64,000 nucleotides of DNA, taken from positions 1 to 64,000 of the forward strand of contig NZ_PYGE01000020.1 of NCBI RefSeq assembly GCF_003014555.1, written 5' to 3'. A program made the position numbers and the translations under genes. The notes under the pieces were generated by a model. It worked only from the letters and a program-made list of their open reading frames with translations, was not told the DNA's origin and did not search any database. The stretch comes from Haloactinopolyspora alba. Its GTDB lineage: Bacteria; Actinomycetota; Actinomycetes; Jiangellales; Jiangellaceae. Positions 22,536-23,593 of this stretch are shown one piece after another (the first letter of the stretch is position 1; each line of letters begins with the position of its first letter).

Positions 22536-23228
22536 ATGACGCTGACGGTTGGGACCCGGTTCCGCGGCCCCGCGGACTCCGGAAACGGTGGATACGTCGC
22601 CGGTCTGCTCGCCGACGGGCTCGGCACCGGACCGGTGACGGTGACCCTGCGTCACCCGCCGCCGCTGGAGACCTCGCTGGAGACGACGCGCGACGACGGC
22701 GGCGTCCGGCTGCACGACGGCGCGACACTCGTCGCCGAGGCGGTGGCCGAACGGGAGGACGGCGACCTCGTCTCCGTGCCTCCGGTGCCGGTCGACGAGG
22801 CACGCGCGGCCGCCCGGACCTACCCCGGGCACACCAAGCATCCGTTTCCCGAGTGCTTCGTGTGCGGAACCACGCGGGCGCACGGTGACGGCATGCGGCT
22901 GTTCCCGGGACGTCTCGGGGACGGCCGGACGGCCTGCGTGTGGGACGTCGAGCCCACCGAGGCGCGGGCACGCGAATTCGTGTGGGCCGCTCTGGACTGT
23001 CCCGGCGGCTGGGCGGCCCCGCTCGAGGGACGGCCGATGGTGCTGGGCCGGCTCACCGCACAGGTCCTCGACACCGCAGCGGCCGCGGAGGCGTGCGTGG
23101 CCATGGGCGACTACCAGGGCACGGAGGGCCGCAAGACGTGGACGACGTCGTCGGTCTACGGCGCGGACGGGCGGCTGCTGGGACGCGCCAGAGCAACCTG
23201 GATCGCGCTGCCCCAGCCGCCGCGCTAG
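22536..23228 (+). CDS. Predicted hotdog-fold (thioesterase-like) protein
   Basis: A 230-residue protein typical of an actinobacterial family usually annotated as hypothetical or thioesterase-like. Features are RFRGPADSGNGGYVAGLLAD, VTVTLRHPPPLETSLE, HPFPECFVCGTTRAHGDGMR with a C-x-x-C pair, and VWAALDCPGGWA. The GNGGY segment and the central W-A-A-L-D-C-P-G helix resemble two joined hotdog halves. The substrate is unknown, probably an acyl-CoA or similar. ATG 22536; divergent from nagA with only 64 bp between the two starts, so shared control is possible. Confidence 0.65.
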   Translation: MTLTVGTRFRGPADSGNGGYVAGLLADGLGTGPVTVTLRHPPPLETSLETTRDDGGVRLHDGATLVAEAVAEREDGDLVSVPPVPVDEARAAARTYPGHTKHPFPECFVCGTTRAHGDGMRLFPGRLGDGRTACVWDVEPTEARAREFVWAALDCPGGWAAPLEGRPMVLGRLTAQVLDTAAAAEACVAMGDYQGTEGRKTWTTSSVYGADGRLLGRARATWIALPQPPR

Positions 23229-23257: not shown

Positions 23258-23286
23258 TTGCCCCCGGAACGGGCGCCGCATACCGT
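23258..23286 (+). promoter_or_regulatory. Promoter of the small structured transcript
   Basis: TTGCCC (23258-23263), spacer of exactly 17 bp, TACCGT (23281-23286). Placed 30 bp after the upstream stop codon and about 14 bp before the extended Shine-Dalgarno of the 12-codon ORF. Confidence 0.6.
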
Positions 23287-23318
23287 AGTGGCACACGGGA
23301 AAGGAGGTGGTCCGCACA

Positions 23319-23357
23319 GTGAATAGCTATCGGACTCGTGAGGTGGCTGCTCGCTAG
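23319..23357 (+). CDS. 12-codon ORF with an extended Shine-Dalgarno (MNSYRTREVAAR)
   Basis: GTG 23319 to TAG 23355-23357. The upstream AAAGGAGGTGGTCC (23300-23313) is complementary to the 3' end of 16S rRNA over 14 positions, with one G-U pair, far beyond a normal ribosome-binding site. The peptide MNSYRTREVAAR is charged and has no domain. It is the only frame on a transcript of about 220 nt bounded by a promoter (23258-23286) and a branched terminator (23433-23513). Possible roles are a leader peptide, a small functional peptide or an RNA acting on ribosomes. I recall similar tiny frames with this very strong site in other actinobacteria but no established function. Confidence 0.6.
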   Translation: MNSYRTREVAAR

Positions 23358-23432
23358 CCACGTGCTCGACGCAGGACCAAGGGTGACCCCTTCGTTCGCC
23401 GGCCGCCGGCTGGCAATTCCGAGCAGTCACCC

Positions 23433-23513
23433 GGCCCGTGGGCTCCCGGGACTCAGTCCACCCGGGCCACGTCTCTCGACGTGGAACCAGCCCACGGGCC
23501 GTTTCTCTTTTCC
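23433..23513 (+). terminator. Three-way-junction terminator with U-rich tail
   Basis: Outer stem GGCCCGTGGGCT (23433-23444) / AGCCCACGGGCC (23489-23500), 12 perfect pairs, encloses two smaller hairpins, CCCGGG/CCCGGG (23445-23450 and 23461-23466) and CCACGTC/GACGTGG (23467-23484). GTTTCTCTTTTCC follows directly, the only clear U-rich terminator tail I found in the window. Confidence 0.85.
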
Positions 23514-23515
23514 AG

Positions 23516-23593
23516 GAATGATCACGTCCCGCATGGAATTCCATGCGTCACCACCCTTGCAGGCCTCGTGACGCATGCGAACGCCTGGTGATG
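23516..23593 (+). repeat. 78-bp intergenic palindromic repeat, copy 3
   Basis: Full-length copy with head GAATGATCACGT starting 3 bp after the terminator tail of the small transcript. The central palindrome is the perfect 16-mer GCATGGAATTCCATGC; the hairpin is GTCAC-N16-GTGAC and the tail ends CTGGTGATG. It ends 105 bp before the stop of the convergent pdxH gene. Confidence 0.88.

Follow-up and report, generated by a model that had tools for sequence, protein, structure and literature searches.

The RNA encoded at positions 23293-23507 on the plus strand of the window, i.e., the whole 64,000-nucleotide stretch of Haloactinopolyspora alba DNA analysed here, is shown by sequence comparison to be Ms_IGR-5 (RF02471) as it occurs in the Jiangellaceae, a structured RNA that is probably transcribed on its own. 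It combines a long site complementary to the 3' end of 16S rRNA, a 12-codon open reading frame (mini-ORF), and a fold of which the mini-ORF itself forms the core strand. This anatomy can be given with high confidence, whereas gating of the fold by ribosomes is proposed with moderate confidence, and we infer that the product of Ms_IGR-5 is the RNA and not the peptide. Ms_IGR-5 has been a catalogue entry since about 2013 with no function assigned, and its anatomy is newly recognised. The initial annotation of this DNA had the core features right; the RF02471 identity, the 5' helix, the long-range helix, and the pseudoknot had escaped it. The features are listed below.

23258-23286 (+), promoter: -35 element TTGCCC (23258-23263), 17-nt spacer, -10 element TACCGT (23281-23286)
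23294-23297 / 23337-23340 (+), helix P1, CACG / CGTG, the latter inside the ORF; from pairing and covariation
23298-23313 (+), anti-16S site GGAAAGGAGGTGGTCC, pairing with the last 16 nt of 16S rRNA (GGAUCACCUCCUUUCU), G-U pairs included
23319-23357 (+), mini-ORF MNSYRTREVAAR: GTG start, 12 codons, TAG stop
23332-23336 (+), 5' strand of the pseudoknot, GGACT (ORF codons 5-6); covaries with 23455-23459
23342-23352 (+), 5' strand of helix P3, GGTGGCTGCTC (ORF codons 8-12); from unguided RNAalifold and pair counts
23353-23359 / 23408-23414 (+), helix P3b, GCTAGCC (stop codon within) / GGCTGGC; 81% paired
23415-23420 (+), internal loop AATTCC (consensus CGAAUYC) between P3b and P3; from column counts
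23421-23431 (+), 3' strand of helix P3, GAGCAGTCACC; from pair counts and RNAalifold
23432-23501 (+), P4, outer terminator stem of 13 bp (23432-23444 / 23489-23501) enclosing two hairpins
23445-23466 and 23467-23484 (+), the hairpins inside P4
23455-23459 (+), 3' strand of the pseudoknot, AGTCC, in the inner terminator hairpin loop; GUC invariant in 130 of 130 homologues, with covariation
23502-23511 (+), U-rich run TTTCTCTTTT past P4, read from the sequence

Family membership and distribution

The match covers the full RF02471 model (1-184) with a score of 101.8 bits (E 9.6e-22), well over the curated gathering score of 45 bits, and is the only copy in this genome. Chance or artefact is ruled out by this match together with the conserved ORF and the conserved 16S pairing. 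The Rfam scan of the window gave no match to 6C RNA, Ms1 / 6S-like RNA, or tmRNA, and no tRNA or tmRNA was found in the window. In one Jiangellaceae genome (G344), a weak second RF02471 match (L075, 27.9 bits) that lacks the anti-16S site is probably due to chance.

In the class, 249 of 394 genomes have an RF02471 match, and in the phylum 57 of 296, nearly always one per genome. Among the carriers are Mycobacterium, Amycolatopsis, Micromonospora, Nocardioides, Blastococcus, Cellulomonas, and Rhodococcus. Sampled genomes without an Rfam match appear to be truly empty of Ms_IGR-5; the RNA is missing from whole families and is therefore not indispensable to the phylum. A DNA pattern matched 114 of 396 phylum genomes, some of them by chance, including families overlooked by the Rfam model. 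In those families (L316-L331 and L373), UGAC or CGAC replaces GGAC and the terminator loop matches the change, and RF02471 could be extended to these lineages. The exact pattern was absent from IMG/VR, on which ground a phage origin was rejected.

Promoter and genomic context

The promoter described in the initial annotation (TTGCCC, 17 nt, TACCGT) is present and, judging from the homologues, is conserved: in 218 of 236, a -10 TANNNT lies at the same distance from the anti-16S site, accompanied by a TTG-like -35 element. A generic sigma-70 scan does not pick up the promoter of the window RNA. Transcription is supported by published data in relatives, as transcripts of the family have been reported in S. 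lividans and S. avermitilis (PMC8079986, PMC8780764) and in M. smegmatis (PMC10454040).

Upstream of the RNA in the window lies a same-strand ORF (22536-23225, +, 230 aa) without a Pfam match; it was found in Jiangellaceae only among the loci compared, a weak observation given that the query was partly out of frame or stop-containing. Downstream lie a convergent pdxH and then citrate synthase. Between the terminator and the pdxH stop, a perfect palindrome (23530-23547, CGCATGGAATTCCATGCG) is overlapped by a 10-bp inverted repeat (23542-23551 / 23568-23577), and this region (23530-23577) could be an operator or the pdxH terminator. The flanking genes change between clades, being pdxH/citrate synthase, aminotransferase IV/THAP4-like, PMSR/metallo-beta-lactamase, Fpg-like/GNAT, or gyrase A/luciferase-like genes, and the RNA is thus independent of its neighbours.

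This context bears on whether Ms_IGR-5 acts as a translation attenuator or leader peptide serving a downstream gene. A Shine-Dalgarno (SD) sequence, a short ORF, alternative pairings, and a terminator do make up an attenuator-like anatomy. However, the regulated same-strand gene that such a device would serve is not found: pdxH is convergent in the window, as the initial annotation implied in reporting no downstream gene on this strand, and of the 222 loci where the crude gene caller finds a next gene, 138 have it on the opposite strand. Since the gene that follows is convergent in most cases and the flanking genes are clade-specific, the attenuator reading, already dismissed in that annotation, is rejected as very improbable.

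Pairing with 16S rRNA

The host 16S gene ends in GGATCACCTCCTTTCT. The anti-16S site contains the 14 complementary nucleotides with one G-U pair that had been noticed initially (23300-23313), and it extends to 16 nt (23298-23313) if another G-U pair is counted. Pairing at all 16 positions is found in 116 of 125 distinct Rfam-derived homologues and at 14 or 15 positions in the others; when the test was slid by a few bases as a control, the number never exceeded 12. The long pairing is thus conserved across the phylum. The parser demanded GGAGGTG[GAT]T, which biases positions 0 to +8 and leaves the remaining positions unbiased. Where the filter did not apply, almost every change still permits pairing with 16S rRNA: positions -4 to -1 and +9 vary only by A/G opposite U or C/T opposite G, position -5 deviates in 8 of 125 homologues and position +10 in one of 125. 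A pattern search of the 5.5-Mb genome for sites with at most one mismatch to the perfect 14-mer returned three, namely, the rRNA operon, the window site, and C14:57273 (L257; G000:C14:57273-57286, ACAGGAGGTGATCC).

The predicted duplex with the 16S tail reaches -29.9 kcal/mol, compared with -11.2 for an ordinary AAGGAGG. A duplex of this strength, in a site whose 16-nt pairing is conserved, would suit a decoy that holds small subunits and thereby titrates or stores initiation-competent 30S, the weak start (TTG being the commonest, in 127 of 232 homologues) and the short ORF merely permitting slow release. However, a single-copy RNA could titrate ribosomes only if it were very abundant, the conserved stop and pseudoknot would be unneeded, and G at +7 is retained in 119 of 125 homologues even though A would pair better with 16S rRNA. 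A role as a 30S decoy is thus considered rather unlikely. The +7 G can also pair with the C of GGAC and therefore hints at a third, P2-like state (see below).

The mini-ORF and its peptide

The ORF predicted by the initial annotation is present with its GTG start, and an in-frame mini-ORF is kept in all 232 distinct homologues, its length ranging from 10 to 17 codons across actinobacteria. In all 232 distinct 5' regions, the start lies 13-18 nt past the first G of GGAGG; the position of the stop, counted from the first G of the second GAGGTG (h), is fixed at h+15 in 231 and at h+14 in one. Starts are TTG (127), ATG (62), GTG (27), CTG (7), ATT (5), ATC (3), and ACG (1), and the stop position holds TAG (212), TGA (13), or TAA (7) and never a sense codon. 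In the start window, NTG is in frame in 216 cases versus 29 and 14 in the other frames, and only the mini-ORF frame is open in all 232 sequences. About half of these sequences come from a pattern that fixes nucleotides, but neither the start nor the stop; in the Rfam-derived subset, NTG is in frame in 110 cases versus 25 and 7, and the ORF is found in 125 of 125.

The ORF also occurs in 60 of 60 deep-branching loci in a search that allowed near-cognate starts, which are easily met by chance and on which nine of these loci depend. In eight deep-branching loci (L116, L117, L120, L125, L350, L360, L361, and L365), the homologous start is AUU or AUC. Codons 2-4 are 66% A/T, compared with 34% overall in the segments, as would be expected of an open initiation region. 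Taken over the 232 homologues and 60 deep loci, the comparative evidence that Ms_IGR-5 contains a translated ORF is strong. Moreover, ribosome footprints on Ms_IGR-5 have been published for M. abscessus and M. smegmatis, although the authors caution that footprints are common on many classical noncoding RNAs (PMC4974804). In mycobacteria, given a good SD sequence, TTG and ATT initiate, whereas CTG hardly does (PMC4633059).

The conserved ORF and strong SD sequence would also be expected of an mRNA for a functional micropeptide whose expression is tuned by RNA structure. The motif ...T-R-E-V-A/T... is common in Actinomycetes, and a crude dN/dS lies below 1 (0.64 and 0.48). However, conservation of the peptide is confined to residues encoded within P1, the pseudoknot, and P3, the loop codons 2-4 are highly variable, and deep lineages retain the start and stop with a peptide replaced by ...SGGGSS. 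In particular, measured against GAGGTG, both start and stop are shifted by one base in L344-L346, L371, and L372, giving an SGGGSS-like peptide. As start and stop shift jointly with an unrelated peptide, translation rather than the peptide seems to be conserved. In two further frame-shifted deep loci (L355 and L370), the stop is at h+17 and the start is uncertain; their arrangement may differ.

Conservation that tracks RNA helices and replacement of the peptide in deep lineages argue, at the level of sequence, against a function of the peptide's own, and a micropeptide as the main product is judged improbable. Accordingly, the heavily made micropeptide that the initial annotation had offered as one reading is unsupported, whereas its other two, a ribosome-binding small RNA or a dual-function RNA, gain support from the 16S pairing, start, and stop, which persist phylum-wide while the neighbours change. 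It had named the lack of conservation of both the peptide and the long 16S pairing as evidence against its proposal; the pairing is conserved and the peptide is not.

RNA fold

The minimum free energy (MFE) of the window RNA has a z-score of -5.2 against dinucleotide shuffles. The main test of the fold used a sequence-only MAFFT alignment of 130 homologues, in which the fraction of double changes exceeded the shuffled maximum for P1 (98% paired; 0.235 versus 0.043), P3 (0.106 versus 0.028), P3b (0.088 versus 0.031), and P4 (0.191 versus 0.052). In a separate alignment of 38 sequences, RNAalifold recovered P3 and P4 unaided, and pair counts gave a covariation score of 0.338 versus 0.159 in shuffles (reached in 0 of 500) and no more than 0.111 in slid controls. 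Helix P1 and the pseudoknot were proposed by hand and then counted; neither came from RNAalifold. P4 largely agrees with the terminator described initially, its two hairpins and U-run being as stated and its outer stem having 13 rather than 12 bp.

The outer pseudoknot pairs were counted in 274 sequences and were Watson-Crick in 232 (shuffled maximum 196) and 155 (93), in shuffles that ignore relatedness; the loop was located by its GUC, and the count is hence informative on the outer pairs alone. No covariation was found further out in the flanks, save a weaker excess at GAC-2:GTC+4 (97 versus 92). On a tree built without the pseudoknot bases, clean double changes numbered four and three at the outer pairs compared with one and zero in controls, numbers that are small because changes passing through intermediates are not scored as double. 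The GUC rule mislabels some loops, which adds noise to both the 274-sequence and the tree-based counts.

Covariation thus supports a fold, comprising P1, P3, and the pseudoknot, that is absent from the Rfam structure. In the RF02471 consensus, model positions 14-19 pair with 55-60 and GcAGuCACC is unpaired; this helix clashes with P3, which is backed by RNAalifold and pair counts. A further hairpin, P2 (GGUCC/GGAC), appears in the MFE structure and was rejected as part of the conserved fold: it is 95% paired with zero compensatory changes, and where UGAC, CGAC, or AGAC replaces GGAC, it is the terminator loop, and not GGUCC, that changes to match. P2 is possibly an alternative state, as suggested by the conserved +7 G. 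The CGAAUYC internal loop (23415-23420) is conserved outside any assigned pairing and is a possible site of protein or tertiary contact.

It may also be asked whether Ms_IGR-5 is an ordinary base-pairing small RNA in which translation merely stabilises the RNA or clears its 5' end. Its seed would be an unpaired conserved stretch, e.g., the CGAAUYC loop, or the anti-SD-like 3' strand of P3 (GCAGUCACC). A stand-alone transcription unit with its own terminator, the conserved internal loop, and relatives catalogued as small RNAs are all in keeping with such a role; nevertheless, the 3' strand of P3 is accounted for by its pairing with the ORF, and the retained start, frame, and stop are left unexplained. 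We regard this explanation as unlikely.

Proposed mechanism

The reading that we prefer, tentatively and at somewhat below an even chance, is that Ms_IGR-5 acts in trans as a riboregulator: ribosome loading would gate its active fold, and the peptide would be a by-product. The 16-nt anti-16S site and the start codon are predicted to sit in an A/U-rich, largely unpaired 5' stretch. The pseudoknot would take up codons 5-6 of the ORF, P1 codons 7-8, P3 codons 8-12, and P3b the stop; the ORF strand would therefore pass without a break through the entire core. To initiate and reach the stop, a ribosome would have to strip this strand from every partner, and upon its departure the core could refold. 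Since an elongating ribosome must displace the ORF strand, folding and translation would be alternatives; this strand is probably contested between ribosomes and folding. We infer that ribosome passage and folding alternate in vivo; the RNA would report or respond to initiation capacity. However, the unfolding argument fits any structured mRNA, and use of the alternation as a signal by the cell would be a further step.

It is also conceivable, though we hold this more tentatively, that Ms_IGR-5 represents a phylum-wide class of ribosome-gated RNAs in which loading at a maximal anti-16S site sets folding, translation is the input, and the peptide is irrelevant. If ribosome loading does gate the fold, translation capacity would be sensed directly by a regulatory RNA, and "noncoding" RNA families could be selected for being translated without a conserved peptide. 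IF3 discriminates against starts of the AUU and AUC type; the lineages that use them would, if the ribosome-gated reading is true, carry a sensor of initiation conditions. In any case, the conserved ORF, 16S pairing, and pseudoknot are precise, testable parts in hosts that include Streptomyces and mycobacteria.

Comparison with known systems

Ms_IGR-5 is known from M. smegmatis as IGR-5 or ncMSMEG15794c. The window RNA is a member, being intergenic, single copy, and matched over its full length, with its own terminator; prior descriptions, as far as searchable, differ in that they contain no ORF, 16S pairing, or pseudoknot. In the literature searched, which did not include the discovery paper (Li et al. 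2013), no description of the ORF or fold of Ms_IGR-5 was found.

Like 6C RNA, Ms1 / 6S-like RNA, and tmRNA, Ms_IGR-5 is a structured, widely conserved RNA of the actinobacterial housekeeping kind, and tmRNA, too, combines pseudoknots with a short reading frame. The trp, erm, and whiB7 leaders are ribosome-controlled attenuators or leader peptides. As in these leaders, translation of a short ORF in Ms_IGR-5 must remodel downstream pairings beside a terminator; in contrast to them, Ms_IGR-5 has no dependent downstream gene, and its neighbours depend on the clade. SgrS/SgrT and RNAIII/hld are dual-function small RNAs, both coding and regulatory, with a functional peptide. Ms_IGR-5 shares with them an ORF and a conserved RNA fold in a single transcript, but in this case the ORF is retained even where another peptide takes over, and it doubles as the core strand of the fold.
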